A stretch of 64,000 nucleotides of DNA from an uncultured Ignisphaera sp. (lineage in GTDB: Archaea; Thermoproteota; Thermoprotei_A; Sulfolobales; Ignisphaeraceae): positions 62,001-126,000 of the forward strand of contig CALJEI010000004.1 in assembly GCA_938074605.1 (NCBI GenBank). The letters run 5' to 3'. Made by a program: the position numbers and the translations under genes. Positions 35,458-60,354 of this stretch are shown piece by piece. Within the stretch, counting starts at the first letter, position 1. Every line of letters starts with the position of its first letter. Under the pieces are notes generated by a model that searched no databases, had not been told where the DNA came from, and worked only from the letters and a program-made list of their open reading frames with translations.

Positions 35458-36357
35458 ATGTTGGTAGGAATTTTAACTCGAAACCCTAACGGGTGGGCAT
35501 CATCTAGACTTATAAAGGCTATCGAATCTCTGGGACATACAGTATTTCCATTTAGATTTAGAGATGTTATTGTTCATATCAATGGTGAATTGCTTAAAGT
35601 ACTTACAAATGGACTTGATATAGTTAGGGAGGTCAATGCAGTTATTGTAAGACCTATTGGTAGATGTAGTCTTGAGTGGGCAATTTTTAGAATGGATCTA
35701 CTATATGCCCTCCAAGACTATGGTGTAACAATAGTAAATAGGCCACAAGCAATAGAGAAATGTGTAGATAAGTTTAGGGTACTATATCTCTTACAGCTTC
35801 ACGGAATTCCAGTACCAGAAACTATTGTGTCTGAAAATGCTTCGCTTGCACATAGATATCTAATGAATCTTAAAAGCAAGGAAGTTATTGTAAAGCCGAT
35901 ATTTGGATCTAGGGGACACGGCTCTACAAAGATAGTCTTAAGTGATAGAGATGTTCTATGGGAGATACTCCATGCAATGGCTTTTACAAGACATGTACTT
36001 TACATTCAGAAGTTTTTACCCCATGGTGGTATGGATATAAGAGCTTTTGTTGTAGGTGATAGAGTTATAGCATCTATGTATAGAATTATATCAAGAGGTA
36101 TGTGGAAAACCAATATAGCACAGGGAGGACAGCCATTAGCTATAGAAAAGCTTGATCCTGAAATTGAGGATATTGCAATAAAGTCAGCAAAAACTGTAGA
36201 ATGTGATGTAGCAGGAGTAGATATTATTGTAGCTAATGGAAAGCCATATGTACTTGAAATTAATAGTCAGCCTGGATGGAAAGGACTTCAAAGTGTTACT
36301 AAAAAGGATATTGCATTAGAGATAGCAAAATATGTTATTGATAAAGCAAAAAAATAG
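35458..36357 (+). CDS. RimK-type ATP-grasp ligase, probable H4MPT:glutamate (MptN) or F420 (CofF) ligase
   Basis: This 299-residue ATP-grasp protein has the RimK-family lysine and glycine loop VIVKPIFGSRGHGSTKIV, QKFLPHGGMDIRAFVVGDRV and the metal-binding GVDIIVANGKPYVLEINSQP-GW. In methanogens two such enzymes add alpha-linked glutamate: MptN to tetrahydromethanopterin and CofF to coenzyme F420. Both cofactors are used by neighbouring enzymes, and the gene meets mch end to end, so either role fits; LysX/RimK-like protein modification is less likely. An AT-rich promoter (TAATTAAAAATT near 35430) implies a nearly leaderless mRNA. Confidence 0.8.
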   Translation: MLVGILTRNPNGWASSRLIKAIESLGHTVFPFRFRDVIVHINGELLKVLTNGLDIVREVNAVIVRPIGRCSLEWAIFRMDLLYALQDYGVTIVNRPQAIEKCVDKFRVLYLLQLHGIPVPETIVSENASLAHRYLMNLKSKEVIVKPIFGSRGHGSTKIVLSDRDVLWEILHAMAFTRHVLYIQKFLPHGGMDIRAFVVGDRVIASMYRIISRGMWKTNIAQGGQPLAIEKLDPEIEDIAIKSAKTVECDVAGVDIIVANGKPYVLEINSQPGWKGLQSVTKKDIALEIAKYVIDKAKK

Positions 36358-36358
36358 T

Positions 36359-37321
36359 TTAGCTTGAACTTAAAGCTATAGAATTTTTAATAACATTAAC
36401 GTTTATGTAGCCTGCTTTAAATGTCTTACCGGAGCTAATATTATTTACGATAACCATAGCAGGTGCAAATACATTTGGATCAATCTTATAGAGTATTTCT
36501 TCACCAAATTGCTTCACAAGATCTACAAATGATTTACCATAATCTTTAGAAGAAGAACTAGGGACTTTTTTTACATACTCTTCTAGTTTTGCATCATCGG
36601 GATAATTAACCATATAGTATGTGGATCCTCCATAGAGTAGCATATCGTTTGTTCTACCCATCATTATTAGTGGATCTGAGTGGAGGGGTGCTATTGGGCA
36701 TACACCAAACCCATATGTAATACACTTTATATCAAATCCTATTGTATTGAATTTAAATATACCGGTTTCAACTATTCTTGCACTTACCTGTACACTACCA
36801 GCTATGCTATTTGGAGCAACTACAACAATGTAGATATTTTTAGGTTCTACGCCAGTTTCACTACTAACATATTTTACTACGTCTTCATTGGGTATTTTAT
36901 TTGTTTCTAAAACAAGGGCAGTTTCATCAGAATACTCTGTATAGCCTATACTTTCAAAGATTCTTTTAGGCTTTTTAGCAAGTATTCTTGCAGGTCCACT
37001 CCCATTGGCAAAGAAGTTTCCTACTCTAATCCTCCAGCCAGCTAGCTGTGAAGCTATACATGATTCAATTGGGTGATTTGTTGATATAGTTATGGCAGGC
37101 AATATCATATCTTCAATGAGTAGGTGTGTAAGAGATACTAAAGCAAGACCTCCAAGACAGACTTTGGAGATAGTAATGCCAGCATCTATACTACCACTAG
37201 CTTTAACACCAGCATCAATTACTGTTGCACCTCCTATATTCAGTACTTCTATCTTGAGTTCATCAGCTATATCAATACTTTTTTTAATTAAATCAACTGC
37301 GAGTTTATTCATAGGTTTCAT
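36359..37321 (-). CDS. mch: methenyltetrahydromethanopterin cyclohydrolase
   Basis: Mch interconverts 5-formyl-H4MPT and methenyl-H4MPT. The 320-residue protein shows family segments IGGATVIDAGVKASGSIDAG, CLGGLALVSLTH, TNHPIESCIASQLAGWRI, FFANGSGPARILA and MMGRTNDMLLYGGSTYYMV. Length matches archaeal Mch. It is the last gene of the ftr-mtd-fwdDB-fwdA-fwdC-mch operon; its ATG overlaps the fwdC stop by four bases. It is cytoplasmic and needs no cofactor. Confidence 0.95.
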   Translation of the reverse strand: MKPMNKLAVDLIKKSIDIADELKIEVLNIGGATVIDAGVKASGSIDAGITISKVCLGGLALVSLTHLLIEDMILPAITISTNHPIESCIASQLAGWRIRVGNFFANGSGPARILAKKPKRIFESIGYTEYSDETALVLETNKIPNEDVVKYVSSETGVEPKNIYIVVVAPNSIAGSVQVSARIVETGIFKFNTIGFDIKCITYGFGVCPIAPLHSDPLIMMGRTNDMLLYGGSTYYMVNYPDDAKLEEYVKKVPSSSSKDYGKSFVDLVKQFGEEILYKIDPNVFAPAMVIVNNISSGKTFKAGYINVNVIKNSIALSSS

Positions 37322-38190
37322 GGGATTTTTACCTCTTCAACAAGTTTTAATAGAGGTTGCAAAATAGTTTTATTTTCTTCCAACGATATTGCAAGAGTTC
37401 CTCTTCCAGCAGTAAGTACATCCCCTATGAATAGAGCAAATGGTTTCTTAAATACCCTTCCCCTTGCCCTTACTTCACTTACTATAGAATCTATGTAGAA
37501 GCTAGGTAGAATTCCTCTAACACTACCACCAACTATTATTCTACCACCAGACATTCTTGCACCAATAAAATCACCACTGCTTTCCTGTACAATAATTAAT
37601 CCTCCAGTCATATATCCTCCAACCATATTGCCTGCATTTTTTTCAACTATTATTGTACCACCACTCATGCCTAACCCAATATACGATCCTACACTACCAT
37701 GAATTATTATTGTGCCATTCTTCATACCTTTTCCAAGTTCTTCACCGGGAAGTTTTGCGCCTATAAAGTTTCCAGCATCACCAAACACCTCTATAGAGCC
37801 TCCTTTCATTTTAGCACCTAGCCAGTTTCCAGTAGATCCCCTAACTATTATACTGCCTTTAATCATCTTATAGCCAGCTAAATGACCAGTATCACCTTCG
37901 ACTACAATCTTTCCACCATTCATTTTATATCCAAGATATCTAATTTTGTTTGTACCATCACCTGATATTATAATTTCTATGTCTTCAGGATTTGATGGAA
38001 GAGTAGTAGGGCTTTCAATATCAAATAAATCCTCTAAAACAATCTTTTTACCACCCTCTAAAATCTTTATATTCTTTATATTATCACTCTTTAAGCCAGC
38101 TATCTTGTCAGGTCTAAATGCCCTTAGATCTATTGGAACAGTTGGTCTAGTCTTCAATCTTGCATAAATAGATGTTTTCTCCTGTGACAT
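37318..38190 (-). CDS. fwdC: formylmethanofuran dehydrogenase subunit C
   Basis: This 290-residue protein is built from about seven repeats of the type GGSIEVFGDAGNFIGAKLPG and GGTIIVEKNAGNMVGGYMTG, which form the parallel beta-helix shared with the C-terminal part of glutamate synthase. In the Fwd/Fmd complex subunit C holds A and B together. It lies ten bases after fwdA. Length is near the ~270 residues of methanogen FwdC with a slightly longer C-terminus (FALFIGDVLTAGRGTLAIS). Confidence 0.94.
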   Translation of the reverse strand: MSQEKTSIYARLKTRPTVPIDLRAFRPDKIAGLKSDNIKNIKILEGGKKIVLEDLFDIESPTTLPSNPEDIEIIISGDGTNKIRYLGYKMNGGKIVVEGDTGHLAGYKMIKGSIIVRGSTGNWLGAKMKGGSIEVFGDAGNFIGAKLPGEELGKGMKNGTIIIHGSVGSYIGLGMSGGTIIVEKNAGNMVGGYMTGGLIIVQESSGDFIGARMSGGRIIVGGSVRGILPSFYIDSIVSEVRARGRVFKKPFALFIGDVLTAGRGTLAISLEENKTILQPLLKLVEEVKIP

Positions 38191-38200
38191 CTAGATCACT

Positions 38201-39919
38201 CTATAGCCTAGGCTTTATCCTAACTTCCGTTAATTTCCTAATTTCATAATCTCTAATTACAAAATTCTCTAATGAAACTGTGTAATAACGTTTAAATCTA
38301 TCCTTAAGATATGCCTCAAACTCCTTGCGTATATCATCAGAAATAGCTGTATAAGGATTGACAGAATATGTTTTACCATAAATGGTCTGCACAATCTCCC
38401 TCTCTTTAACCACGATTTTCCCCTCTTTAATAACACACCATGCCCTCTGAAATGCTTTTAAAATCTTCTCATATTCACTACTAGGGTCTATAGCTCTAGG
38501 ATTAATATCATATATTGCAATATCAGCATCAGCACCTACACCAAGGTGTCCTTTTGTATCTTCTAATCCTAAAAGCTTAGCGGGCGCTGCTCTAGTGATG
38601 ATGATTAACTCATATAAAGTGATTTCTCTATTTATAGATGGAAGTATGCATTTTCTTAAAGCTCTTTGATTTACCTCCTTCAATGTTTTTTCTCTATAAC
38701 TTTTGCTCATAATCCATGCAAATATCTTTGGATAATCTGTAAATACTCCAGCATTTGGATGATCTGTTGTTATGAGGGTTCTCCAAGGATCTCTTGATAG
38801 TAGTAAAACTTCGAGACCTATTGCCCACTGTATGGTGTTTACATAACTCTTTTTACGATATCTATATGGCACTATTCCTGAAGCTGTTTCATTTTCAATA
38901 TCAGCGTTTGCCCATTTCCATCTAGTTAAATGATACAATATGAATTCAAAGGGTGCATCAGCTGTCATGGTAGTTGCTTCACCAAATGTTACTTGCCCAA
39001 GATCTAGTGTAACATAGGGGTTTGCATTAAGTTCACTAGCAATAACCTCACCACCACTTTCCAATGTCGCCCATGATTCTCCTCCATACCCTGTAAATTG
39101 TACATGTGTAATATGGATACTATTTCTATCTCTTAATGCGAAATCCTTTCCAAGTTTCATAGTATTTAATGTTGTAATGTAATTTCCTGGAAAGCCTAGC
39201 CTATTGCAGTGTACATGTATTGTGTGGGGAAGGTTTAAAGACTCATTTGCTTCGCCAACTAGGCGTATTATATCTTTGGGTGTTAGATTGTATTCAGGAA
39301 CCTGGTCATCTAAATCTAAACTTGGTCTACCCATCATCCACGCAACATCGCTCCCTGGATCAACAAGTTTTAAAGCATAACCCTTTGTAGCATATAAGAG
39401 CCATGCTAAATAAATCTTCAATAAATCCTTTCTATTCTCAGCCATGAGATCTAGAGCAAGCCAATTAGAGTCAACAAGTACAAAGACCATTTTATCAATA
39501 ATTGGTATTGCATTAAGCTCGTCATGAGCATGTCTCATTTTCAGAGGGGCGCATGCAGGTTCAGCGACAAGTGTATAACCCATCATCGCATACTTATATC
39601 CTATGGCAAAGACATTAGGTACAGTCCTACCTGTCATAGCTCTTCTAAATGGTAACTTACTCGGAACATTAGTTAAATAATGGTCCTCAGGTCTCATAAG
39701 TCTACCGATATTGACCTTGGGTCCAGCTATATGGGAATGTATATCTATCCCTCCAGCTACAACTAATCTTTCGCCAGCATCTATAACTATGGCTTCAGAC
39801 TCTCTTACTTTAGATGGATCGACAATTCTTCCATTGCTGATACCAATATCCATTAATTCTCCTTTAATATTATTGAAAGGATCTATTACAAAGCCATTCT
39901 TTATAATGATATCTGTCAT
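38201..39919 (-). CDS. fwdA: formylmethanofuran dehydrogenase subunit A
   Basis: FwdA is the amidohydrolase-type subunit that condenses formate with methanofuran at a binuclear metal site. The 572-residue protein has the metal motif GGIDIHSHIAGPKVNIG (His about 61 and 63), the lysine-containing YALKLVDPGSDVAWMMGRPS, TIHVHCNRLGFPGNY, IHITHVQFTGYGGE and the aspartate in LITTDHPNAG. All are features of FwdA/FmdA/FhcA. One base separates it from fwdDB, so translation is coupled. It works with subunits B, C and D in CO2 reduction to, or oxidation of, formylmethanofuran. Confidence 0.95.
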   Translation of the reverse strand: MTDIIIKNGFVIDPFNNIKGELMDIGISNGRIVDPSKVRESEAIVIDAGERLVVAGGIDIHSHIAGPKVNIGRLMRPEDHYLTNVPSKLPFRRAMTGRTVPNVFAIGYKYAMMGYTLVAEPACAPLKMRHAHDELNAIPIIDKMVFVLVDSNWLALDLMAENRKDLLKIYLAWLLYATKGYALKLVDPGSDVAWMMGRPSLDLDDQVPEYNLTPKDIIRLVGEANESLNLPHTIHVHCNRLGFPGNYITTLNTMKLGKDFALRDRNSIHITHVQFTGYGGESWATLESGGEVIASELNANPYVTLDLGQVTFGEATTMTADAPFEFILYHLTRWKWANADIENETASGIVPYRYRKKSYVNTIQWAIGLEVLLLSRDPWRTLITTDHPNAGVFTDYPKIFAWIMSKSYREKTLKEVNQRALRKCILPSINREITLYELIIITRAAPAKLLGLEDTKGHLGVGADADIAIYDINPRAIDPSSEYEKILKAFQRAWCVIKEGKIVVKEREIVQTIYGKTYSVNPYTAISDDIRKEFEAYLKDRFKRYYTVSLENFVIRDYEIRKLTEVRIKPRL

Positions 39920-39920
39920 T

Positions 39921-41651
39921 TTAAGCCAAACCCTTTAACTTTTTAACTCTATCAATGAGTTTGGATAGAATATCTATATCACATAGTACGCCCTTTGGCG
40001 GTTCTACAAACTTCTTGAGTCTAAGTGGAACATCATCTAATCTGTATACAGTTCCCTCACACTCTACACCAGTAACAGCAGATGGTATAAGGACATCTGC
40101 AACACTTGCGCTTAATGACCAGAAGGGATCTACTACTATCTTGGGAATCCTCATTAGATTTTCAACTGCTTTTTGTGGAAAGTGAGCTACAGGATCACTA
40201 GCAATTATTAGTGCAGCATCAACATCGCCATTTACAAGTAGGTCTATGGTTGTTGTTACTCCTGGGATCATCTTTGGGAATCCTCTTGAGAAGTCTACAC
40301 CATATGGATAACCTGTTAGCCACAGCATTGCATGATTAGAACCTGTAACATTATAGTGTCCACGCATTGGTAGAAGTGCCCACTTACTCCATTCGTTGAG
40401 TTCCTGTACAAGTTTTATAACTTCTTCAAGATTCTTGTATTTTGCACCTCCTTGTGTTAACCCCATACCAAAGAATATAACGCCGAATTTAGCTGTTCTC
40501 ATAATCTCTATAAGCTCATAAATCTTTTCCCTTGGAACACCAGCCACACTGGGAACCTCTATGTCGTAGTCTCTCAAAGCCATTCTTAAAACTGTAAATA
40601 ACTCATAGTCCTTACCAGGCTCTATCTGTATAAAGATATCAGCAAGTTTAGCTGTATCAGTCCTCCTTATATCTATCACGATAATCTTTCTTTCTTTACG
40701 TCCTTTAACAAACCTCCCTTCCGGTAAAATAATACGTCTAATATGATTAATATGTGCATTCATCGGATTACAGCCCCAAAACACAATGGTGTCTGCTAGA
40801 TTCATTGCCATACCCAATGTAATTCTAACTGAACCCACCTCCTGGACGGCTAAAACAGTTGGGCCATGACATAATGTTGTAGTATTATCAACAACACCTC
40901 GTGTAATTTCAGCAAGCTCTACTGCAAGCTCTGTTACCTCCACACAAGTACTAGATAGACCGTATATTAGAGGGTATTTAGCATTTGCTAGAATTTCTGC
41001 TGCTTTATCTAAGGCATATTCAAGGTCAACTTCCATAAAATCCCCATTACTTTCCTGCCTAATCATGGGGGTTAGAACCCTGTGTCTATAGTAGTTCATA
41101 AACTTTGCGTGCCCTATTGGACAAGCATTTAGAACTCTAGATGTTTTTTCACCATCTAGCTCTATAGTAAGAAAGTCACATACTTCACCGCAGAATGGAC
41201 ACGGAACATCATATACCACCCTTTTAATACCTACCGATAATGGCCTTTCGGCAGGCTTATAATGGATTTTGTTAACTCCAAAGAATCTAAGTATAGCATC
41301 AAGCGGTGTTGCATCTTCAGATGTCGCCTCTACATATACATCAATATTTTTTAGTGTTGGCATGCCAGTCCCTTCAGTTATTGGTAATGTTAATAAATTT
41401 GCCCAGGGGCCCATTGGTATAAAGACTGTACCTGGAGGAATATCATTATTTGGCTTTACATTCACTACTATACTTCCATATACACTAGTGATCTTCACAT
41501 TATCCTTTATACCTATTATCTCAATATCCTTGGGGTTCATTTCGGCTACTGCTACAGCCCTTCTATAGATGTCACTAAATTTTCCCCCAGACTCCATTGA
41601 GCGTCCTTGCTCTATTGTACGGCCTGTTACTAGCTTTAGTGTTAATGGCAT
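39921..41651 (-). CDS. fwdB: formylmethanofuran dehydrogenase, subunits D and B fused
   Basis: The 576-residue protein joins two normally separate subunits. Residues 1 to about 130 match FwdD, the molybdopterin dinucleotide-binding beta domain (LVTGRTIEQGRSMESG, VAEMNPKDIEIIGIKDN, PPGTVFIPMGPWANLLTLP). Residues from about 146 on match FwdB: a 4Fe-4S motif with Cys 151, 154, 158 and 177 (CPFCGEVCDF...ACPIGHAK) and Cys 261 in LCHGPTVLA, the position that ligates W or Mo and is selenocysteine in some methanogens. It reduces CO2 to formate inside the complex, or the reverse. The junction (about 131-146) is a short basic linker; no frameshift is needed to join them. Confidence 0.92.
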   Translation of the reverse strand: MPLTLKLVTGRTIEQGRSMESGGKFSDIYRRAVAVAEMNPKDIEIIGIKDNVKITSVYGSIVVNVKPNNDIPPGTVFIPMGPWANLLTLPITEGTGMPTLKNIDVYVEATSEDATPLDAILRFFGVNKIHYKPAERPLSVGIKRVVYDVPCPFCGEVCDFLTIELDGEKTSRVLNACPIGHAKFMNYYRHRVLTPMIRQESNGDFMEVDLEYALDKAAEILANAKYPLIYGLSSTCVEVTELAVELAEITRGVVDNTTTLCHGPTVLAVQEVGSVRITLGMAMNLADTIVFWGCNPMNAHINHIRRIILPEGRFVKGRKERKIIVIDIRRTDTAKLADIFIQIEPGKDYELFTVLRMALRDYDIEVPSVAGVPREKIYELIEIMRTAKFGVIFFGMGLTQGGAKYKNLEEVIKLVQELNEWSKWALLPMRGHYNVTGSNHAMLWLTGYPYGVDFSRGFPKMIPGVTTTIDLLVNGDVDAALIIASDPVAHFPQKAVENLMRIPKIVVDPFWSLSASVADVLIPSAVTGVECEGTVYRLDDVPLRLKKFVEPPKGVLCDIDILSKLIDRVKKLKGLA

Positions 41652-41666
41652 TACTATGCCCGTATT

Positions 41667-42533
41667 CTACTCCTTTTTAACAGGCTTTTCAACTAACTTC
41701 TCCTTAAATAGAATTTCACCCTTTGTACTATGCGGCATTCTTACAACGGTATCGCCATATTTTTCAATCTCCCTAGCTTCATCTGCTAATAGTGCAGCAT
41801 ATCTCATCATTTCATGGGCTGCTGCTACTATTGGGATATATCTCTCAGCTTCCTTAACCTTAAAGCATCCCTCAGTAGTTAGATCAGCGACATGTCTAGC
41901 GATTTCATATGCAGCCATAGCCTTGACCTTTGCATACTGATTTCTAAATTCAGCATACCTTATGGCAGTCTCTTTATCAACAATGATTCTAGGTAACTGA
42001 ATGTTTGTGACATCCTTCTTAATCTGGTCGATTACATTGTCGATTTCTGTTTGAAGGAGTCTATAAACACCTGTTGTAGATAGAACGCGTATTATGTCAC
42101 TATTGAAGAGGGCCATTTCAACAGAGTCTAGGAATTCTCTTCTTGCACCAATCATTGAATCAGCTAAGACTATTATGTAGCCGAATCCTTTAGCCTCAAG
42201 ATCCTTTACAATCTTTGTTGTTGGTGCGTCAGATATTACAATGACATGCTTACCCTTTTCCCTGAGACTCTCTCTAGCCTTTGTGGGTCCAGGGGTAGTT
42301 GCATTAGGGCTTATAACTATATATAGATTACAATCCTCTTTAAGGCTTTTCTCAGCAAGCTCTAAGCCGTATTTCTCATCATACATTTTAGAACCCGTTG
42401 TAAAAGTCCTAATCTCAATATCCATTCTATCAGCTCTTTCATCAAGGATGAACTCTAATAGTGGTGCTGAACCAATACAGCCAAGCTTAAGAACGCAGAT
42501 CTTCACAATCTTGGTCACTTCAGATTGTGACAT
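41667..42533 (-). CDS. mtd: F420-dependent methylenetetrahydromethanopterin dehydrogenase
   Basis: Mtd reduces methenyl-H4MPT to methylene-H4MPT with reduced F420. The 288-residue protein has the Mtd opening VKICVLKLGCIGSAPLLEFI-LDERADR, TFTTGSKM, the VISPNATTPGPTKAR loop and VISDAPTTKIVKDLEAKGFG, all family hallmarks. It is the true F420-dependent type, not the NADP type MtdB. It sits between ftr and fwdDB with 50 and 15 bases spacing; an AT-rich stretch before it could give an extra promoter. Confidence 0.95.
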   Translation of the reverse strand: MSQSEVTKIVKICVLKLGCIGSAPLLEFILDERADRMDIEIRTFTTGSKMYDEKYGLELAEKSLKEDCNLYIVISPNATTPGPTKARESLREKGKHVIVISDAPTTKIVKDLEAKGFGYIIVLADSMIGARREFLDSVEMALFNSDIIRVLSTTGVYRLLQTEIDNVIDQIKKDVTNIQLPRIIVDKETAIRYAEFRNQYAKVKAMAAYEIARHVADLTTEGCFKVKEAERYIPIVAAAHEMMRYAALLADEAREIEKYGDTVVRMPHSTKGEILFKEKLVEKPVKKE

Positions 42534-42583
42534 ATGCTTTCCCTATTGGAAATATTCTGTATAAAAATATTTAAAAATTTTTA

Positions 42584-43516
42584 CTATATTTGCAAATTAA
42601 TATTTTTAACTACTTCAAGAGCCTCCCGTAAATATAGGTGATACGGTCCAAGCTTGCCGCCATAATTACCTGCATCAATTTTTACTATACCTGGCACTGT
42701 TGAAGCAGCCCATATTGCTACACCCAGTGCAAATAATACATCCTCTTTTTTTAATCCATTTATTACAATTTCATATACTGAATTGACCTCTTGAGGTAAC
42801 TTAGAATCTTTAATAACATCTTTTAGTGTGGGACAATATAGATGATTTGTTGTTGCTCGAAGCTTTGGATACTTTAATGAACCAACTTTAGAGCCAGATC
42901 TCACTATACCGCCTGGAAATGGTGTTATAACTCTTCTAGCATATTTCTTTATAGCTTTAACAGCTCTTTCAGCGGCTAATAGTCCAGCCTCACTATTTCT
43001 AGCAAGAATAAGTATGTTCCCTCCAGCGACACCTTTGATAGCCCCAAATGATTCCTCAATTATAAACTCGCCCTCCATCACCGGAATCCTCCACACCTTC
43101 CTACCATATAGATTATCCTCTTTTTCAAAACCATCTCCAAATTTTGCAAGTGCAGCTCCTATACCCATTCGTCTTTTAGCCCATGGCAAACCGTCGAAGG
43201 CTGCTGTGGTAGGGCATGTAAGTATAGTCTGGCCAACCCTTGAGATTGTAATCATTTTAAGATTTGCAGGATCAGTATGATAAAATTGAATGGCTATACC
43301 AATCCTTTTATCTGGTGTTAATCTAGGTGACAAGAAGCATTCAATACCAGTTTCACCAGGGCTGGCAATAACAGAGGTACCAAAACCTGTTGCAATTCTT
43401 CCAGCTATTGCTGCCCATTTCCGATTCTTAGCTGTTACGATAATTCTTGTAGCATACATAGGGAAAGCTTCGGCAAATGTATCTTCAATTAAAACGTTAC
43501 CAATATTGAAACCCAT
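42584..43516 (-). CDS. ftr: formylmethanofuran--tetrahydromethanopterin N-formyltransferase
   Basis: Ftr moves the formyl group from methanofuran to H4MPT. The 310-residue protein has IGNVLIEDTFAEAFPMYATR, TGFGTSVIASPGETGIECFL, RVGQTILTCPTTAAFDG, FGDGFEKEDNLYGRKVWRIP and the closing NYGGKLGPYHLYLREAL, all diagnostic. It is the first gene of the C1 operon and divergent from cofE, with a palindromic TATA-like box between them. Family length is about 297, so it is complete. Confidence 0.96.
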   Translation of the reverse strand: MGFNIGNVLIEDTFAEAFPMYATRIIVTAKNRKWAAIAGRIATGFGTSVIASPGETGIECFLSPRLTPDKRIGIAIQFYHTDPANLKMITISRVGQTILTCPTTAAFDGLPWAKRRMGIGAALAKFGDGFEKEDNLYGRKVWRIPVMEGEFIIEESFGAIKGVAGGNILILARNSEAGLLAAERAVKAIKKYARRVITPFPGGIVRSGSKVGSLKYPKLRATTNHLYCPTLKDVIKDSKLPQEVNSVYEIVINGLKKEDVLFALGVAIWAASTVPGIVKIDAGNYGGKLGPYHLYLREALEVVKNINLQI

Positions 43517-43548: not shown

Positions 43549-43558
43549 ACTTATAAAC
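43549..43558. promoter_or_regulatory. TATA box possibly shared by divergent cofE and ftr
   Basis: ACTTATAAAC reads GTTTATAAGT on the other strand, so the same ten bases look like a TATA box both ways. It lies 42 bases before the cofE ATG, which has GAGAGGAG as ribosome site, and 33 bases before the ftr ATG. No other clear box lies in the 83-base gap. Confidence 0.4.
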
Positions 43559-43599: not shown

Positions 43600-44358
43600 A
43601 TGAGGAGAATAGAAATTTATGGACTTAGAATAGACAGAGAAGTGCTGCCTAGAGAGGATATAGTTGAAACGCTAATTATGGCTGCAGAAAACAATGGTGT
43701 TAAGATATTAGAAGGCGATATAATTGTTGTGTGTAGTAAGGTTGTCGCTAAGTCAGAAGGACGTATTATTTCTCTAGATAGTGTAAAACCATCGGAAGAA
43801 GCTATAAGAATTGCCAGTATTAGTAATAAGGATCCCAGGCTAGTTGAATTAATATTGAGAGAGTCAAGTGAGATTTTAAAGGTAGAGAGAAATAACATTA
43901 TAGTACTTACAAAACATGGTATTGTAGGAGCAAATGCAGGGATAGACCAATCAAATACTGGAGGCGCTGGAAGAGTTATTTTATTGCCAGTAGATCCAGA
44001 TGCTTCAGCTAATAAGATTCGAAGACGCATTAAAGAGAAACTGGGTATCGATGTAGCGGTAATAGTGTCTGATACATATGGTAGGCCATTTAGGGAGGGG
44101 CAAATAAATCTTGCAATAGGCTTTGCAGGGATATGTCCATATAGGGACTATAGGGGTCAGAGTGATAGAGATGGCTATATACTTAGAATTAAAAATATTG
44201 CAATTGTTGATGAAATAGCAGCTGCAGCAGAACTTGTTATGGGGCAAGCAACAGAGAATACACCATTTGCAATAGTTAGGGGGGTTGAATATAGTCGGTG
44301 TGAGGATGCTAGCTTCAAAGATATTGTGATGCCTAAAGAACGATGGTTGTTCAAATGA
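43600..44358 (+). CDS. cofE: coenzyme F420-0:L-glutamate ligase
   Basis: CofE adds gamma-linked glutamates to F420-0 with GTP. The 252-residue protein has EGDIIVVCSKVVAKSEGRII, VLTKHGIVGANAGIDQSNT, VAVIVSDTYGRPFREGQINL and IVDEIAAAAELVMGQATENT, all CofE signatures; the GIDQSNTGG loop and DTYGR aspartate bind metal and nucleotide. It lacks the C-terminal nitroreductase-like domain of actinobacterial FbiB, as normal in archaea. It is divergent from the C1 operon that uses F420 through Mtd. Confidence 0.95.
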   Translation: MRRIEIYGLRIDREVLPREDIVETLIMAAENNGVKILEGDIIVVCSKVVAKSEGRIISLDSVKPSEEAIRIASISNKDPRLVELILRESSEILKVERNNIIVLTKHGIVGANAGIDQSNTGGAGRVILLPVDPDASANKIRRRIKEKLGIDVAVIVSDTYGRPFREGQINLAIGFAGICPYRDYRGQSDRDGYILRIKNIAIVDEIAAAAELVMGQATENTPFAIVRGVEYSRCEDASFKDIVMPKERWLFK

Positions 44359-44458: not shown

Positions 44459-45601
44459 TTGAGTACAAAGGTAGTTAACGTACAGATAAATATAGATGCA
44501 GGATTCTGTTCTTTTTGTGGTGCATGTATAGCTGTCTGTCCAACACATGTAGGTTCAAAGAATCTTGATTATATTCCAGAAAAGTCAGCTGATAAACCAA
44601 TTGTTAAGGATTCTCAAAAATGTGAAAAATGTCGACATACATTATGTATGCAAATTTGTCCACAGCTAAATATTCCAGCTAAACTATTTAACACAAGTAG
44701 CTATATCTATCAGGAAGCATACTATTCAAGGTCTAAGATGCAGGAGGCATTAAGTAGGGCACAGGATGGGGGAACAGCTACAACACTCCTTCTAACGGCT
44801 CTAAAAGCAAGATTTGTAGACTATGTGATTATCCTTAAGAAAGACGAGGAATGGTACCCCAGGCCTATGGTTACACAAAGTGAAGCTGATATCATAGACG
44901 CTGCTAGTTCAAAATACGTTTTTTCTCCAATACTTGCTACACTATATGACATTATAGATAAAATTGATGTTGGTAGAATAGCAGTAGTTGGTATTCCATG
45001 TCAGTTAAGAGCTCTTGAAAATATCAGTCAACTTGAATTTAAACATAATAACATCATAGCATTTAAGATCGGCCTCTTCTGTATGCATGGCTTTTCAAGG
45101 GATAGAATGGAATCGATATTAAAGGAGCTTAATATAACATTTCAAGACGTGGTGAAAATGAATATAAAGAAAGGAAAGCTATGGTTTACATTAAAAGATG
45201 GAAGAATATTAGATTATCCATTAAAGAAGGCCGAAAAAGTACTAAGACCAGCATGCAGACAATGCCCAGAACTTTTTTCACCATATGCAAATGTAAATAT
45301 AGGATCTATAGCAGCAGAAGAAAATTGGAACAGCTTACTGATAATGGATTCTAGGGGGAAGGAGCTAGTTGAAAAGGCCATTGATATGGGCCTCCTTGAG
45401 GTCAAGCCTATGGATAGCAGTGGCATTGAAACTATAAATAAGTATGTGAATAAAAAGGTTGGAGATGCATTAAAGTATAGAGAACAATATACCAAGGAGT
45501 TTCAAAACATTCTACTTATAACTCCTACAAAAAGGGGTAGAAAGCTAAGCGACATTCTAGAATATAGATCCAGAAGAAGTATTTATCTCTCACCACTATA
45601 A
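44459..45601 (+). CDS. FrhB/FdhB-like F420-dependent oxidoreductase subunit with two 4Fe-4S clusters
   Basis: This 380-residue protein has an N-terminal two-cluster ferredoxin region (Cys 17, 20, 23 and 27; then Cys 55, 58, 63 and 67 in a C-X2-C-X4-C-X3-C order) followed by the FrhB/FdhB N and C domains that bind F420 and FAD (AQDGGTATTLLLTAL, VGIPCQLRALENI, IGLFCMHGFS, RPACRQCPELFSPYANVNIG). Relatives serve F420-reducing hydrogenase, formate dehydrogenase and F420H2:ferredoxin enzymes. Here no hydrogenase large subunit is adjacent; the next gene, 12 bases on, is a four-cluster ferredoxin. Start is a TTG with GTGA upstream. Confidence 0.88.
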   Translation: MSTKVVNVQINIDAGFCSFCGACIAVCPTHVGSKNLDYIPEKSADKPIVKDSQKCEKCRHTLCMQICPQLNIPAKLFNTSSYIYQEAYYSRSKMQEALSRAQDGGTATTLLLTALKARFVDYVIILKKDEEWYPRPMVTQSEADIIDAASSKYVFSPILATLYDIIDKIDVGRIAVVGIPCQLRALENISQLEFKHNNIIAFKIGLFCMHGFSRDRMESILKELNITFQDVVKMNIKKGKLWFTLKDGRILDYPLKKAEKVLRPACRQCPELFSPYANVNIGSIAAEENWNSLLIMDSRGKELVEKAIDMGLLEVKPMDSSGIETINKYVNKKVGDALKYREQYTKEFQNILLITPTKRGRKLSDILEYRSRRSIYLSPL

Positions 45602-45613
45602 AGGTGAGACTCA

Positions 45614-46081
45614 ATGGTAAGAAAAATATTTATAGATATAGCAAAATGTATTGGCTGCCATGCCTGTGAAATAGCCTGTGAAGAAGTTCATGGGAAATCG
45701 TATATTACTGTCTATGAGGTTACAGATTTCCTTACAATACCATTAAAGTGTATGCACTGTGAAAAAGCACCGTGCGTTAGAGTTTGTCCAACTAGAGCTA
45801 TGAGAAAAGCTGACGGTATTGTTATTGTCGATGATGCGAGATGTATCGGCTGTACATCCTGTATAACAGTATGCCCATTTGGGGCACTAGAGCTTAACTC
45901 TAGAGGAACTGTAGAGAAGTGTGATCAGTGTAAAAATCGTACAGTAAAGGGTTTGCTACCAGCTTGTGTAGCAGCCTGCCCCACAGAGGCATTAGTATTT
46001 ATGGAGGAAGAGGAGTTCACTAAATTAAGAAGGTTAAATGTAGTAAGAGAGCTCAGTGAAAAACTACTGGCATACTGGTGA
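45614..46081 (+). CDS. four-cluster ferredoxin-like electron-transfer protein (HycB/CooF type)
   Basis: This 155-residue protein has sixteen cysteines in four 4Fe-4S motifs: 12/15/18/22, 46/49/54/58, 77/80/83/87 and 103/106/118/122, in the crossed order typical of HycB, CooF and DMSO-reductase beta subunits. It lacks a signal peptide or twin-arginine motif, so it is cytoplasmic. ATG behind AAGGTGAGA, 12 bases after the FrhB-like gene, so the two form one operon. The pair probably moves electrons between F420 and ferredoxin, or to an enzyme encoded elsewhere. Confidence 0.9.
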   Translation: MVRKIFIDIAKCIGCHACEIACEEVHGKSYITVYEVTDFLTIPLKCMHCEKAPCVRVCPTRAMRKADGIVIVDDARCIGCTSCITVCPFGALELNSRGTVEKCDQCKNRTVKGLLPACVAACPTEALVFMEEEEFTKLRRLNVVRELSEKLLAYW

Positions 46082-46372: not shown

Positions 46373-47125
46373 CTAGCTACTATATAGCTTACTCCAATGT
46401 CTTTCAATTTCTGTCTTTAGAGCATGGATGGCCTCTTTAGAGATCCTTCCGAGTCTAACACCACCACTACAAGCGGCAGTCCTAACACCAATAACATCGA
46501 AACCTAAATCTACACATGTAGGAATGTGTTTAGCCTTTAGGCCACCTGCAATGGCTGCATATAAGCCGTTCTTATGGGCGTTAGTCACAAATTCATTTAG
46601 GTACTGAAGTGGAATATAGTCGAAAGTTGATTTACCATTCTTGATACGCGTATCGATCATGACCCCCCAAACTCTAGTAGTCTTAGCAACCTCAATAATC
46701 TCTAGGGGCTCCAGTGCACCTATATTTTTCCAGTCAGCATAACTAACTAAAACAACATTAGTTCTATTGTTGCAATATGTGATTGTCTTTTTGATTTGTG
46801 AAACAGTATAGAGTGCTTTATTGTAGTCATTCATCTCTATACCTATTTTAATGTAGTTAACATTTAGTGAGGAAAGTGTGTATGCTATATAGCTAAAACT
46901 ATGATTGTAATCTTTAATATCACCTATTGCTATGCTTATCTCCTTAGACCTCTTATTAATAATATTTACGATACTGAAGACTACGTCTAGCTGTGGAAGT
47001 CCCAAAGAACCTATAGAGGGATCTTTAACATCAACTATATCAGCATCCCCCTCTATAACCTCTGGCACCTCATCTACAGTCCATATACTGACAAGAAGTT
47101 TCGGTCTTGACTTTAATTTCGCCAT
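46373..47125 (-). CDS. mfnB: 4-(hydroxymethyl)-2-furancarboxaldehyde-phosphate synthase (methanofuran biosynthesis)
   Basis: MfnB makes the furan ring of methanofuran from glyceraldehyde-3-phosphate. The ~250-residue barrel protein opens with LLVSIWTVDEVPEVIEGDAD-IVDVKDPSIGSLG, where Lys about 34 matches the Schiff-base lysine of the DVKxPxxGSLG motif. Later come GIEMNDYN, NVVLVSYADW, GVMIDTRIKNGKSTFDY and AIAGGLKAKHIP, all family features. The ATG at 47125 has GGAGGG at good spacing; the ATG at 47131 is too close. It supports the methanofuran-using Fwd and Ftr enzymes upstream. Confidence 0.92.
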   Translation of the reverse strand: MAKLKSRPKLLVSIWTVDEVPEVIEGDADIVDVKDPSIGSLGLPQLDVVFSIVNIINKRSKEISIAIGDIKDYNHSFSYIAYTLSSLNVNYIKIGIEMNDYNKALYTVSQIKKTITYCNNRTNVVLVSYADWKNIGALEPLEIIEVAKTTRVWGVMIDTRIKNGKSTFDYIPLQYLNEFVTNAHKNGLYAAIAGGLKAKHIPTCVDLGFDVIGVRTAACSGGVRLGRISKEAIHALKTEIERHWSKLYSS

Positions 47126-47289
47126 AGGCATAACCCTCCATCTTATAAGTGGTATTGAAAAATATTTACAGTACTAGTACATCATTTTTAGCAGTTTAAA
47201 CGTTTTTAAAGCTTAAATACATAATATTATTTAAGGCGTAGTAATCAGTATTGTGGTAGCTAGAAAATGTAGCAAAGGAGGTGATAGCA

Positions 47290-49401
47290 TTGGCTTTTAG
47301 CGGTATAGACCTATTTAAACCTCGAAGTGTAGCTGTCATTGGAGCGTCAAGAGAACCCAATAAAGTTGGGCATGCAGTACTGAAGAATATTATTAATAGT
47401 GGATTTCAAGGAAAGGTATATCCAATAAATCCCAAAGCGGAGGAAGTACTAGGTATTAAGGCATATAAATCGGTACTAGATGTTTCAGAGGACATAGATC
47501 TAGCCATAATGGTTGTACCTGCCTCTATAGCCTTAGATGTAGCTGAAGAGTGTGGTAAGAAGGGCATTAAACATCTTGTTGTAATTTCAGCCGGTTTTAA
47601 AGAAATAGGGGGTGAAGGTGTTGAAAGGGAGCGAAAACTTATTGAAATAGCTAGAAAATATGGTATGAGGATAGTGGGACCTAATTGTCTTGGTATTATA
47701 GATACATATACACCTATAAATGCATCATTTTCAGCCACCATGCCGAGGAGAGGTAACATAGCATTTATCTCACAAAGTGGAGCTCTACTTACTGCAATTC
47801 TTGATTGGAGTATTAGAAGAGGTATAGGTTTTTCAAGAATTGTAAGCCTAGGTAATAAAGCTGACTTAAATGAAGCTGACTTTATTCAAGCTGTTGAGGA
47901 AGACATCAATACAAAAGTTATTCTATTATATCTAGAGTCTATTGAGAATGGTAGAAAATTTATAGAAATCGCAGGTAGGGTTAGTAGAAAGAAGCCAATA
48001 GTGCTTCTTAAGGGTGGTGTTACAGAAGCTGGCGCTAGAGCAGCTATGAGCCATACTGGAGCTATGACAAGTAGTGTAACAGCTCTTGAAGCAGGACTTA
48101 AAAAAGCAGGTGTACTACTTGCTCGTACTCTTTCAGAGTTATTTGACTATGCTATAGCATTTAGCTATCAGCCGATACCTATAAATAATAGGATTGCAGT
48201 AGTAACTAATGCTGGAGGGCCAGGGGTCATAACATCGGATATGATCATAGCCCGAGGGCTAAGGCTTGCATTACTTACTCCAGATACTATAAATAGCCTT
48301 AGATCGAAACTCCCACCAGCTGCAACAATATCTAATCCTGTAGATGTACTTGGAGATGCTAGAGCCGATAGATATAGCTATGCCATAGAGATGGTGCTAA
48401 ATGACGATAATGTAGATGGTTTGATTGTAATACTAACACCTCAAGCCATGACTGAGCCTATAGAGACTGCAAAGGCTATGCTAAGACTAAATAAGAAGTA
48501 TCCAAATAAGCCAATGATAGGGGTGTTCATAGGAGGCGATATGGTTGAAGAAGCATCTAAAATACTTATGGAAAATGGTCTTCCCGTATATGATTTACCT
48601 GAAAGAGGGGTTGTTGCAATCTATGGTTTGTGTAAATATAGAGAAAACTTAGAATATTTAGAGAAAATCTTAGAGAAAGCAACATTTTTCGACATTGATA
48701 GAGCTACGGCGCTATCCATAATAAGTAATGTTAGAAATGAAAATCGTAAAACACTATTGGAGTCGGACGCTAAAGACCTTGTAAGAAGCTATGGTATTCC
48801 AGTAGCTCCAACACGCCTTGCAAGAAATGAGGATGAAGCTGTTGAAATAGCTAGTAAGCTTGGCTATCCAGTGGTATTAAAGATAGCTTCACCAGATATT
48901 GTACATAAGACAGATATAGGAGGCGTTATAATGAATATAAACTCAGAGAGAGAAGTTAGAGAAGCATTTAGAACTATAATTGATAGAGCATATAGATATG
49001 CACCAAAGGCAACCATATATGGAGTAGTTGTACAAAAAATGGTTCCAAGAGGTAGAGAGGTGATAATTGGTGTATCTAGAGATCCTGTATTTGGCCATAT
49101 TATAATGTTTGGTCTTGGTGGGATATATACAAACATATTTAGAGATGTCTCATTTAGACTGGCACCCCTCTCAGTGTATGAGGCTAAAGAAATGGTTAGT
49201 GAAACAAAGGCATATACATTACTAAGAGGCTACCGAGGCGAAGAACCATCAGACATATCATCGATAATAAATATTCTACTTAGAGTTAGTCAATTGGTTA
49301 GTGATATACCCGATATAGCAGAAATGGATATTAACCCCCTCTTTGTATATAATGAGGGTATGGGTAGTCTAGCTATAGATGTAAAGGTGGTACTCTCATA
49401 G
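47290..49401 (+). CDS. acd: ADP-forming acetyl-CoA/acyl-CoA synthetase, fused alpha and beta subunits
   Basis: This ~703-residue enzyme converts acyl-CoA, ADP and phosphate to acid, CoA and ATP. It joins an alpha part (CoA-binding RSVAVIGASREPNKVGHAVL; succinyl-CoA-ligase-like GNIAFISQSGALL; phospho-histidine about 255 in AMSHTGAM) to a beta ATP-grasp part (about 485-703; IPVAPTRLARNEDEAVEIAS, GYPVVLKIASPDIVHKTDIG). In archaea this is the main substrate-level ATP step from acetyl-CoA. The TTG at 47290 fits AAAGGAGGTGAT; a GTG at 47281 lies inside that site. One base after it comes the BioD/DRTGG gene frame. Confidence 0.93.
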   Translation: MAFSGIDLFKPRSVAVIGASREPNKVGHAVLKNIINSGFQGKVYPINPKAEEVLGIKAYKSVLDVSEDIDLAIMVVPASIALDVAEECGKKGIKHLVVISAGFKEIGGEGVERERKLIEIARKYGMRIVGPNCLGIIDTYTPINASFSATMPRRGNIAFISQSGALLTAILDWSIRRGIGFSRIVSLGNKADLNEADFIQAVEEDINTKVILLYLESIENGRKFIEIAGRVSRKKPIVLLKGGVTEAGARAAMSHTGAMTSSVTALEAGLKKAGVLLARTLSELFDYAIAFSYQPIPINNRIAVVTNAGGPGVITSDMIIARGLRLALLTPDTINSLRSKLPPAATISNPVDVLGDARADRYSYAIEMVLNDDNVDGLIVILTPQAMTEPIETAKAMLRLNKKYPNKPMIGVFIGGDMVEEASKILMENGLPVYDLPERGVVAIYGLCKYRENLEYLEKILEKATFFDIDRATALSIISNVRNENRKTLLESDAKDLVRSYGIPVAPTRLARNEDEAVEIASKLGYPVVLKIASPDIVHKTDIGGVIMNINSEREVREAFRTIIDRAYRYAPKATIYGVVVQKMVPRGREVIIGVSRDPVFGHIIMFGLGGIYTNIFRDVSFRLAPLSVYEAKEMVSETKAYTLLRGYRGEEPSDISSIINILLRVSQLVSDIPDIAEMDINPLFVYNEGMGSLAIDVKVVLS

Positions 49402-49410
49402 GTGTTAACC

Positions 49411-50472
49411 ATGAAGGCTATATATTTTATTGGAGAGAGAGGTAAGACAATTCTAATATATGGCCTCTTAAGGAGGTTTTCTCTAGAGGGTTTTAAGGTA
49501 GCATATTTTAAACCTATATCAATAGCTAGAATAAGGCTTGCATCTGGTAAATATGTAGATACAGATGTTATTGCAATTAAAGAAGCACTAGGGCTTGAGA
49601 ACTCAATAGAGCATATCTCACCTGTGGTAATATCTAGGGGCTATCTTGAGTTAGGCGAACATATAGATGATGTTAAAGCTAGCATCTTGGAGAGTTTTAA
49701 AAAGATTAGTGAAGGTAGGGACGTTGTTGTTGTTGAAGGGTATACACCTGCGGAGGCATTAACGTCTATTAACTGTGGTGTAGTAGAGCTTGCAAAGATG
49801 TTTGGAGCAAAGATAATATTTGTTATAGATTGTAAAAGTAGAGCAGTAATTGATGAAATAACTGATAGGATAGTTCTTTACAGATGTTTTATAGAGAAAT
49901 TAGGTGGTGAACTGTATGGTGTTATTCTTAATGCTGTACCAATAGTATATGCTGAGCGTATTAGAAGCCTAATAGTTCCACATTTAGAGAGTCTTGGAAT
50001 TAAAATACTTGGTGTAATTGAAGAGAGGCCTAGACTTTTAGCTTTAACTGTGAAGGACATTGTAGAAGCGTTGGGTGCTGAGGTTCTAGAGGGTAGAGAT
50101 AGACTGAATACCATGGTAGAAGATATCCTAGTAGGTGCTATGGGGCCTGAAGCAGCTATTAGATGGTTTAGAAGAGCAGTAAATGCTGCTATTGTTACAG
50201 GTGGTGATAGAACTGACTTGATAATGCAGGCTCTTGAAACTCGTGCGAGTGCTATAATTTTAACGGGGAATTTATATCCATCTAGAGGCGTCTTAATACG
50301 AGCTAGAGAAACAGGCACCCCTATATTATTGGTACCATATGATACATTTACAACAGTCGAAAAACTTAGAGAGATGCAGGGAATAGTTACAGCGGATTCG
50401 TTAAAGATTAGAGATAAGGATCTATTAGCAATTATTGAGAAGGAGGTTAAGTGGAGGGAACTACTGGCATAG
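49411..50472 (+). CDS. BioD-like/DRTGG-domain protein related to the N-terminal part of phosphotransacetylase
   Basis: This ~353-residue protein has an N-terminal P-loop-like BioD/CobQ domain (AIYFIGERGKTILIYGLLRR; DVVVVEGYTPAEALTSINCG; KIIFVIDCKS) and a C-terminal DRTGG domain (VEDILVGAMGPEAAIRWFRR, AAIVTGGDRTDLIMQALETR). This COG0857 arrangement is fused to phosphotransacetylase in bacteria and is free in some archaea. Directly behind the acyl-CoA synthetase it may sense or regulate acetyl-CoA flux. ATG at 49411 with GGTG ahead. Its end overlaps the convergent CofE-like gene by 26 bases. Confidence 0.8.
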   Translation: MKAIYFIGERGKTILIYGLLRRFSLEGFKVAYFKPISIARIRLASGKYVDTDVIAIKEALGLENSIEHISPVVISRGYLELGEHIDDVKASILESFKKISEGRDVVVVEGYTPAEALTSINCGVVELAKMFGAKIIFVIDCKSRAVIDEITDRIVLYRCFIEKLGGELYGVILNAVPIVYAERIRSLIVPHLESLGIKILGVIEERPRLLALTVKDIVEALGAEVLEGRDRLNTMVEDILVGAMGPEAAIRWFRRAVNAAIVTGGDRTDLIMQALETRASAIILTGNLYPSRGVLIRARETGTPILLVPYDTFTTVEKLREMQGIVTADSLKIRDKDLLAIIEKEVKWRELLA

Positions 50473-52287: not shown

Positions 52288-52890
52288 TTATGTAATGAAG
52301 CCTATTTTACTAAGTGTTCTAACCATAGGTAGTGTTAATATTGATACATAGGTTGCAGAAATGGCGTTGAATAACACTATTAAATGGAGTATGGGCATAA
52401 TGATGTTATTCAAGGCCATAATATATGAGGGTGCTCCCCAGAATAATGTCGCTATTAATGGTGTTATAAGAATGTTTAGTATGGCCATGACTATAGATCT
52501 ACTTGCTATAGCTGTAGCTACAAGCAGAAGGGATGCCATTCCTGTAGATATGTGGGGGTATCTCCTATTAATATGTTTATATAGACATACCATCGGTATA
52601 TAGGTTGAGGCTTCAGCTAAAACCTTCATAAGAGGACTTAAAGGATTTGTAGCTCCCATTAATAAAATCCCTAAGTAAAATATAGGTAGACCTAGTGTGA
52701 TAGAAAGTGTAAGATTTATAAAGCCAGCTACTGCTAGTGGAATTCCACATAAATCAAATTTTAAGAATGGAGCTAGCGGAAAGTCGATTTTAGCTATATG
52801 GATGGGTATGGCAAGTGCAGATAACATGATTACTAGAGCTGTAGTCAATTTAAATGGCTTTGAAGGTATTTTGGGAACTGGTATAGTCAA
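52288..52890 (-). CDS. ECF transporter S-component-like membrane protein (RibU-like)
   Basis: This 200-residue protein has about six helices. The loop after helix one, AKIDFPLAPFLKFDLCGIPLA, strongly resembles the FP-PFLKFD-DIP pattern of RibU-type and related vitamin-binding S components, and GILLMGATNPLSPLMKVLAE fits the next helix. The TTG start overlaps the cofD stop (TTGA). Since F420 is made from a riboflavin precursor, the substrate could be a flavin, a deazaflavin or another vitamin; this is inference from position. A T-component-like gene follows. Confidence 0.7.
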   Translation of the reverse strand: MTIPVPKIPSKPFKLTTALVIMLSALAIPIHIAKIDFPLAPFLKFDLCGIPLAVAGFINLTLSITLGLPIFYLGILLMGATNPLSPLMKVLAEASTYIPMVCLYKHINRRYPHISTGMASLLLVATAIASRSIVMAILNILITPLIATLFWGAPSYIMALNNIIMPILHLIVLFNAISATYVSILTLPMVRTLSKIGFIT

Positions 52891-53867
52891 TTATGATCCT
52901 GTTTCCTTAGTTTTTCACTCACCATACTTAAAAGTTTTTGTGCCAATGCTATTTTAGAATCTATGGTATCCATAGTTATATTAGCTAGTGTTACCTCTAT
53001 CCCCAATGTTCCTCTTATCTTATATGCTAGATATTCATCTGAAGAGTCTATAACTATGTTTGATATGATATCAGAGTAGAGTTCAGCAACACCATAAGCT
53101 GATGGTTCAAAGCCTAGATATTCTAATACAATATGGGCAACGCCTGTAAAGGCTCTGCCGCTTCTAATTGGGGAAACAGCTATTACAGGTACACCTATTT
53201 CCCGTCTTCTCCTAATATACTCTCTAACACCTTTAGTGAGCAGTATTGGATTTATGCTTAGAAGAGGGTTGCTAGGACCTAATATAATTACATCAGCATT
53301 TGTTAAAGCATTTAAGACTTCAGGGGTAGCCTTAGCACCATCTATACCTTTGTACTCGATTTTAAGGACTTTTATTTTTGTTGGATCTTGTTTAGCAGCA
53401 TATTTAACAAGATATTCTTGGACATGAAGTTCGCCTAGATCTGTATTTAGGTGTGTCTCTACATGCTCATCGCTCATAGGCAGAACAACTCCTCTAGCCT
53501 TAAGAGTATTACAGATATGTTTTGTAATTTCTGTTAATCTAATTCCTCGTTTAAGCATATAGGTTCTAACTATATGTATTGCTAAATCTTTATCCCCCAG
53601 TATAAACCAGTCTAGGATTTCAAACCCTTTAATCATATTGTAGGCATTGAAAGTATCATTCATAATACCCCAATACCTATTAGTATCAAGTAGTCCAGAG
53701 GCAAGATATGTAGCAGAATCAACATCGGGTGCAATATAAAGATCTAAAAGCCATATGTTATCGGCAGTATTAGCCACTATAGTTATGTTATTTGGGTCTA
53801 CTAATTCTCTCAATCCTTCAAAGAGCTTTAAACCGCCTTGACCACCTGTAAGTAGTACAATATTTAT
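52887..53867 (-). CDS. cofD: 2-phospho-L-lactate transferase CofD, start codon non-canonical
   Basis: CofD joins the lactyl-phosphate unit to the deazaflavin Fo. The protein has VDPNNITIVANTADNIWLLD, GLYVSPD-like DLYIAPDVDSATYLASG, LGDKDLAIHIVRTYML and ILGPSNPLLSINPILLTKG. The first canonical start in frame is a TTG at 53813, but it would cut off the conserved opening; the same frame runs 18 codons further and encodes NIVLLTGGQGGLKLFEG, the glycine-rich motif of the family. Upstream of that, AAGGTGAT is followed at six bases by ATA (53865-53867), then a stop lies further up. So an AUA (or AUU) start is likely. Confidence 0.88.
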   Translation of the reverse strand: MNIVLLTGGQGGLKLFEGLRELVDPNNITIVANTADNIWLLDLYIAPDVDSATYLASGLLDTNRYWGIMNDTFNAYNMIKGFEILDWFILGDKDLAIHIVRTYMLKRGIRLTEITKHICNTLKARGVVLPMSDEHVETHLNTDLGELHVQEYLVKYAAKQDPTKIKVLKIEYKGIDGAKATPEVLNALTNADVIILGPSNPLLSINPILLTKGVREYIRRRREIGVPVIAVSPIRSGRAFTGVAHIVLEYLGFEPSAYGVAELYSDIISNIVIDSSDEYLAYKIRGTLGIEVTLANITMDTIDSKIALAQKLLSMVSEKLRKQDHN

Positions 53868-56330: not shown

Positions 56331-56413
56331 GTAAGAACACCTAAAAACTATAAGTATAAACAATACTGCTATTAAATTATTTGCCTAACTAGTATCTCTT
56401 GGGTCAGCCCCCT

Positions 56414-60332: not shown

Positions 60333-60354
60333 CTAGGTTAATAAAGTGATTGTG

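Follow-up and report, generated by a model that had tools for sequence, protein, structure and literature searches.

What is a compact set of genes for the tetrahydromethanopterin (H4MPT) pathway doing in a member of the genus Ignisphaera? The question is raised by a stretch of 64,000 nucleotides (hereafter the window; contig CALJEI010000004.1 of assembly GCA_938074605.1) from an uncultured Ignisphaera sp., in which the genes ftr, mtd, fwdDB, fwdA, fwdC and mch form an operon at positions 36359-43516. Judged by homology, the host genome has genes for every step of the H4MPT Wood-Ljungdahl pathway, mer among them, and we put the chance at roughly 0.7 that this complete archaeal pathway is used reductively and driven by H2, for autotrophy or acetogenesis. 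The operon itself is not novel, because the same gene order is found in other families of the Thermoproteota. What appears to be new comes from the comparison: relatives within Ignisphaera have swapped the dehydrogenase, and most of them carry a candidate reductase, here named A1, instead of Mer.

The operon and its products

The six open reading frames, all on the minus strand, lie head to tail in the order ftr-mtd-fwdDB-fwdA-fwdC-mch, with intergenic gaps of 50, 15, 1, 10 and -4 bases in that direction. Their identities were scored against NCBIfam models with curated cut-offs (given below in bits as score against cut-off), and are listed with the most informative structural matches.

42584..43516, minus: ftr, formylmethanofuran:H4MPT formyltransferase (TIGR03119, 385 against 293; PRK02114, 398.5 against 297)
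41667..42533, minus: mtd, F420-dependent methylene-H4MPT dehydrogenase (PRK00994, 383.6 against 297; PDB 1qv9, 1.8e-78)
39921..41651, minus: fwdDB, FwdD-FwdB fusion, the molybdopterin (tungsten or molybdenum, W/Mo) subunit of formylmethanofuran dehydrogenase (TIGR03129, 525.7 against 327.8)
38201..39919, minus: fwdA, formylmethanofuran hydrolase subunit (TIGR03121, 732.3 against 392.75; 8rja_A, 7e-167; 5t5i_A, 1.9e-164; bacterial FhcA 6s6y_A, 8e-88)
37318..38190, minus: fwdC (TIGR03122, 207.2 against 130.65)
36359..37321, minus: mch, methenyl-H4MPT cyclohydrolase (TIGR03120, 382.4 against 228.8)
43551..43557, minus: TATA-like box TTTATAA ~35 bases ahead of the start of ftr, a putative promoter, conserved in Ignisphaera sp. 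SKYB63

The open reading frames and the family cut-offs thus agree with the gene content, order and gaps given in the original prediction. The fusion protein FwdDB is 576 amino acids long in one frame, with a FwdD domain at residues ~5-122 followed by FwdB at 148-569. It matches both corresponding chains of the W enzyme FwdABCDFG (5t5i_B, 1.4e-135; 5t5i_D, 2.1e-23), and its FwdB part retains the Fe-S motif CPFCGEVCD and the cysteine of CHGP; the FwdD part scores 112 bits, which is under the cut-off of that narrow model. FwdA, B, C and D are all present, together with the Fe-S and metal-ligand cysteines of a W/Mo formylmethanofuran dehydrogenase. The arrangement differs from that of FwdABCDFG in that D and B are fused and no polyferredoxin is found in the operon; FwdF/FwdG and FwdE are absent from it, and no genome-wide search for these three was made. 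An Rfam search of the window gave no match.

The nearest named relative, Ignisphaera sp. SKYB63 (82%; genome G008), was assembled independently and has the same six-gene block (L001), at 82-85% identity (78% for fwdC). Because of this copy the block can be neither a chance arrangement nor a chimera; a chimeric contig, which had been raised as a possible flaw, was rejected.

From CO2 to acetyl-CoA

The original prediction had placed the operon, leading from the formyl level to methylene-H4MPT, in a non-methanogen, with neither mcr nor genes for carbon monoxide dehydrogenase/acetyl-CoA synthase (CODH/ACS) in the window. Both are indeed missing from the window, and mcrA has no match in the host genome (17 contigs totalling 1.63 Mb, 97.8% complete), the control genomes being positive. 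The implied absence of CODH/ACS, however, is an artefact of the window's edge: cdhABCDE is found farther along this contig, at 13 to 23 kb beyond the end of the window, with CdhC at C4:142184-142651 (~16 kb past). The matches to cdhA (1124 bits), cdhC (608), cdhD (325) and cdhE (563) are all above cut-off; that to cdhB is weak (35.5 bits), but the gene is in place. A lone operon without CODH/ACS was therefore rejected. Beyond mer the contig continues with genes for an Mrp-type antiporter, then for a group-4 NiFe hydrogenase, with the two NiFe cysteine motifs (CGICGFVH and DPCFSCTDR) in its large subunit. Another HydN-like gene comes next, and after it cdhA-E, followed by genes for an activator of the RACo type and an ATPase resembling CooC. 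Contig C7 adds an Mvh-Hdr-like cluster (large and small hydrogenase subunits, an MvhD-like protein, HdrA, HdrB and HdrC) and a group-3b-like hydrogenase. Across 18 Ignisphaeraceae genomes, CdhC occurs in exactly the same nine as FwdA. A search with FwdDB at E<=1e-3 matched only FwdDB itself in the host genome, with no second FwdB/Fdh-like protein and no FdhA-like formate dehydrogenase, while paralogues were matched in relatives.

With these enzymes in hand, a reductive route can be proposed. The FwdDB/A/C complex would reduce CO2 and load the formyl group on methanofuran, from which Ftr would transfer it to H4MPT; Mch would dehydrate formyl-H4MPT to methenyl-H4MPT, Mtd would reduce this to methylene-H4MPT with F420H2, and Mer (62646-63635) would yield methyl-H4MPT. 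CODH/ACS would then combine the methyl group, CO and CoA to acetyl-CoA. Ferredoxin would be handled by the Mvh-Hdr-like complex and the group-4 membrane hydrogenase with its Mrp-type antiporter, and F420H2 would be made by an FrhB/HydN pair. The acetyl-CoA could enter biosynthesis or, by way of a linked ADP-forming acyl-CoA synthetase, give acetate and ATP. The identities, linkage and co-occurrence of the genes are observed; from them we infer the direction of the pathway, its electron carriers and the formation of acetate.

Several of these genes lie around the operon, and mer, mtrH and the genes for methanofuran and F420 had been placed within 26 kb of it. All were located, as mer, an mtrH-family gene, cofC, cofD, cofE and homologues of mfnB, mfnE and mfnF.

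35458..36357, plus: mptN-like H4MPT:glutamate ligase, convergent to mch (NF040720 as best match, 245 bits, below the cut-off of 350)
43600..44358, plus: cofE, F420-0:glutamate ligase, divergent from ftr (TIGR01916, 266 against 181)
44459..45601, plus: FrhB/FpoF-like F420 oxidoreductase with an N-terminal ferredoxin domain (PF04432, 2e-34; PF04422, 1e-16; Fer4_10)
45614..46081, plus: HydN-like multi-[4Fe-4S] protein (PF13247, 3.4e-21)
46373..47131, minus: mfnB-like, methanofuran synthesis (PRK02227, 178 bits, below cut-off)
47281..49401, plus: ADP-forming acyl-CoA synthetase, fused alpha-beta, candidate acetate/ATP-forming enzyme (TIGR02717, 604 against 567)
49402..50472, plus: Pta-N-terminal/DRTGG-like partner of the synthetase (PRK05632, 127 bits, below cut-off)
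52887..53813, minus: cofD (TIGR01819, 246 bits, cut-off 257)
53886..54545, minus: cofC (TIGR03552, 114 against 105)
54583..55251, minus: mfnE-like (NF040622, 106 bits, below cut-off)
55248..56363, minus: mfnF-like (TIGR03123, 301 against 244)
57612..59945, plus: hypF, NiFe hydrogenase maturation (TIGR00143, 727 against 466)
60015..60332, plus: hypC-like, starting MCLGVP (assigned by eye and from its place between hypF and hypE)
60346..61404, plus: hypE (TIGR02124, 343 against 252)
61652..62530, minus: mtrH-family methyltransferase (PRK00979, 349 against 287; below the MtrH equivalog cut-off; PF02007)
62646..63635, plus: mer, F420-dependent methylene-H4MPT reductase (TIGR03555, 437 against 349)

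The mptN-like gene is found at the same place in L037, L040, L158 and L159. The synthetase gene is present in the islands fetched from seven Ignisphaera genomes, and in six genomes it is accompanied by the Pta-N-terminal/DRTGG-like gene.

Some observations weigh against H2-driven CO2 reduction. In culture, I. aggregans grows as a heterotroph (PMC3035270), and it is without this gene set. The pathway is reversible, the synthetase match fits acetate and 4-hydroxybutyrate models alike, and the electron route into Fwd is one we infer, FwdE, FwdF and FwdG having been looked for in the operon only. The cooC-like gene upstream of cdhA (L071:14716-15084) encodes 122 amino acids, compared with ~260 in relatives, through either truncation or an assembly or frameshift error. 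Since every step can be reversed, the same enzymes might run oxidatively, taking acetate, amino-acid or methyl carbon to CO2 and releasing the electrons as H2 through the hydrogenases. The mtrH-family gene near mer would suit such a use, as would another Ignisphaera island (G003, L035:3884-5847), whose operon adjoins genes for a corrinoid protein and a methyltransferase of the UroD type, and the uptake of 13C-acetate by Ignisphaera in sediment (PMC10579274). The strains behind this uptake, however, are unassigned, and simple assimilation would account for it too; the window showed no methyltransferase for methylamine or methanol, and acetate formation suits the Mvh-Hdr-like complex and the linked synthetase no less well. 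We consider oxidative use unlikely, though not far-fetched.

It is quite improbable that the operon supplies one-carbon (C1) units for biosynthesis only (purines, serine and methionine), with no part in energy metabolism or the fixation of carbon. An anabolic use of H4MPT pathways is possible, and the mtrH-family gene is in keeping with it, but CdhC and FwdA share the same genomes, the hydrogenases and the synthetase are linked or present, and species without the island, such as I. aggregans, grow without it. A module of the bacterial Fhc type, a formyl hydrolase taking formaldehyde to formate in place of a CO2-reducing dehydrogenase, is suggested by the parallel between fwdA, B, C with ftr and fhcA, B, C, D. 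Bacterial FhcB is without Fe-S and molybdopterin ligands. Here the FwdD domain and the Fe-S and metal cysteines are retained, FwdB matches FhcB at only 6.6e-5 as against 1.4e-135 for the archaeal W enzyme, and FwdA is far closer to archaeal FwdA (7e-167) than to FhcA (8e-88); the Fhc reading is hardly tenable and was rejected.

The reductive Wood-Ljungdahl reading has its counterpart in methanogens and Archaeoglobus, and in the pathway proposed for Bathyarchaeia (PMC7886697), where the same enzyme families lead from CO2 to acetyl-CoA; the H2- and F420-linked electron enzymes are likewise those of systems without Mcr, such as the one proposed for Bathyarchaeia. What differs here is the Ignisphaera host, the union of FwdD and FwdB in one protein, the lack of linkage of FwdF/G to the operon, and the use, in sister species, of another dehydrogenase and, probably, another reductase. 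Ignisphaera genomes assembled from metagenomes in a hot-spring study were called fermentative heterotrophs (PMC8579995), and the operon adds a well-resolved case of what is, by its gene content, a complete CO2-fixing acetyl-CoA pathway in a genus so treated.

Two proposed versions of the pathway within Ignisphaera

The original prediction had also taken the island to be unusually complete for the Thermoproteota, and the novelty of this fell away once gene orders were compared. The order ftr-mtd-fwdDB-fwdA-fwdC-mch recurs in two other families, f33 (G176, G287 and G199) and f13 (G399), and is identical where the contig allows. In f33, which belongs to another class, the operon is joined by a convergent mptN and adjacent mer and cdh genes; in f13, of the same class, mptN is on the other strand. 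FwdDB is 54-58% identical between these families and the window. Versions with ftr inverted or otherwise rearranged are seen in f35, f55, f57, f58, f42 and f40. That some Ignisphaera genomes encode H4MPT and methanofuran functions and others do not was already published (Chistoserdova 2016, PMC5020050), although the literature searched gave no paper combining Ignisphaera with formylmethanofuran.

The comparison within the Ignisphaeraceae (18 genomes) is more telling. Mtd and Mer are found, and CofD is intact, only in the window genome and SKYB63. At least six further Ignisphaera genomes have an operon ftr-fwdDB-fwdA-fwdC-mch without mtd (that of G010 ends at a contig end inside fwdC). Six (G001, G003, G004, G005, G007 and G010), which lack Mtd, Mer and intact CofD, have a protein like the NADP-dependent MtdA/MtdB of Methylobacterium (PDB 1lu9; 2.7e-47 for the G003 copy), for which there is no counterpart in the window genome, with its F420-dependent Mtd inside the operon. 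The mtdB-like gene immediately precedes ftr in G001, G003, G005 and G007; in G004 and G010 it lies elsewhere. Within one genus, then, some species have F420 as dehydrogenase cofactor and others, by homology, NADP; this switch is a natural experiment in the rewiring of a C1 pathway.

Because the F420 order is common to f33 and f13, mtd inside the operon would seem to be ancestral, and displaced in the other Ignisphaera. A tree of the core operon agrees with this: the window genome and SKYB63 are placed outside f33 plus the other Ignisphaera (98/98), though Ignisphaera monophyly is not rejected (approximately unbiased test, p 0.07). The same placement could mean that the operon was transferred whole into the window species alone; set beside it are the p value and a CdhA tree that groups all Ignisphaera, and the trees do not settle the choice.

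Some side observations belong to these relatives. CofD in G012 is in two pieces with a stop (L107, G012:C35:3533-3993), as if F420 synthesis were decaying in that lineage. The corrinoid protein and UroD-type methyltransferase by the operon of G003 suggest methyl-group input in species of the NADP type. The same genome has, between its mtdB-like gene and a group-4 hydrogenase, a HydN-like Fe-S protein and a GltD/NfnB-like flavoprotein (L035:14183-15812) that may be an NADPH-ferredoxin module. Orphan fwdDB-fwdC pairs, with no fwdA, ftr or mch nearby, occur in I. aggregans (L034:8050-10576) and G003 (L036:8957-11462) and may encode a Fwd-derived formate dehydrogenase or CO2 reductase.

A1, a candidate methylene-H4MPT reductase

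If the NADP-type species run the pathway, which enzyme reduces methylene-H4MPT? The six Mtd-less Ignisphaera lack Mer as well as methylenetetrahydrofolate reductase (MTHFR, PF02219); MetF was rejected as the missing enzyme, PF02219 being found in none of the 18 Ignisphaeraceae. For five of these genomes, the fetched islands contain a family of ~257 amino acids (240-260), A1, whose genes adjoin the mtdB-like gene or cdh/cooC genes.

L092:2127-2897, L096:9824-10594, L099:18351-19118, L102:6495-7256, L103:3886-4656 and, from I. aggregans, L180:7369-8127: A1 members, with no Pfam, NCBIfam or PDB match (chance matches only in PDB)

We propose A1 as a candidate for an as yet unrecognised methylene-H4MPT reductase. 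The genome-wide search for it covered 398 Thermoproteota genomes, with G001 outside its coverage. Strong A1 members were found in 46 and Mer, delimited at ~40% identity and 180 bits, in ~41, and the two were together in none (one-sided Fisher 0.005, a value that counts genomes, not independent events, and is uncorrected for phylogeny). In family f14, A1 flanks cofE at the site where mer and cofC flank cofE in the sister genomes G341 and G408. In G300 the gene for A1 immediately precedes mtd, in G185 it is beside an mtdB-like gene, and broken A1 remnants persist in Mer-bearing genomes (L202:2976-3249 in G176; L203:2310-2408 in G379).

A possible remote resemblance to MTHFR would point the same way. 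When A1 was combined with distant Sulfolobales homologues and compared with a seven-member MTHFR profile, hhalign gave a score of 41.9 over 163 columns (P 4e-5, probability 70%); 60 column shuffles reached at most 19.7, and the best unrelated control 28.8. A glutamate is the key catalytic residue common to Mer, mycobacterial Mfr and MTHFR (PMC11094777), and E10 of A1, invariant in 17 sequences, is aligned to the catalytic Glu28 of E. coli MTHFR. Against this, the strong A1 members alone score 17.7, which is not significant, nor is the comparison with the single sequence of E. coli MetF. Neither Mer nor A1 is present in 26 of the 65 Mtd genomes counted, and A1 occurs in I. aggregans, which lacks the remaining pathway. 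On balance we lean towards two versions of the Wood-Ljungdahl pathway in Ignisphaera, an F420 version with Mtd and Mer in the window species and, in most relatives, an NADP-type version with MtdA/MtdB and an A1 reductase, and towards A1 replacing Mer in many Thermoproteota otherwise read as lacking a reductase. Archaeal genomes without Mer have been taken to have lost the capacity to reduce CO2 (PMC7886697). If A1 is a reductase, such readings may need correction where it is present, and the methylene-pterin reductases would gain a fourth type, next to Mer, MTHFR and Mfr.

The distant homologues in other Sulfolobales (L193-L197), at 23-29% identity, have genes for a corrinoid protein, mtrH or both nearby in G258 and G368, and are perhaps the unrecognised methylene-pterin reductase of those organisms.

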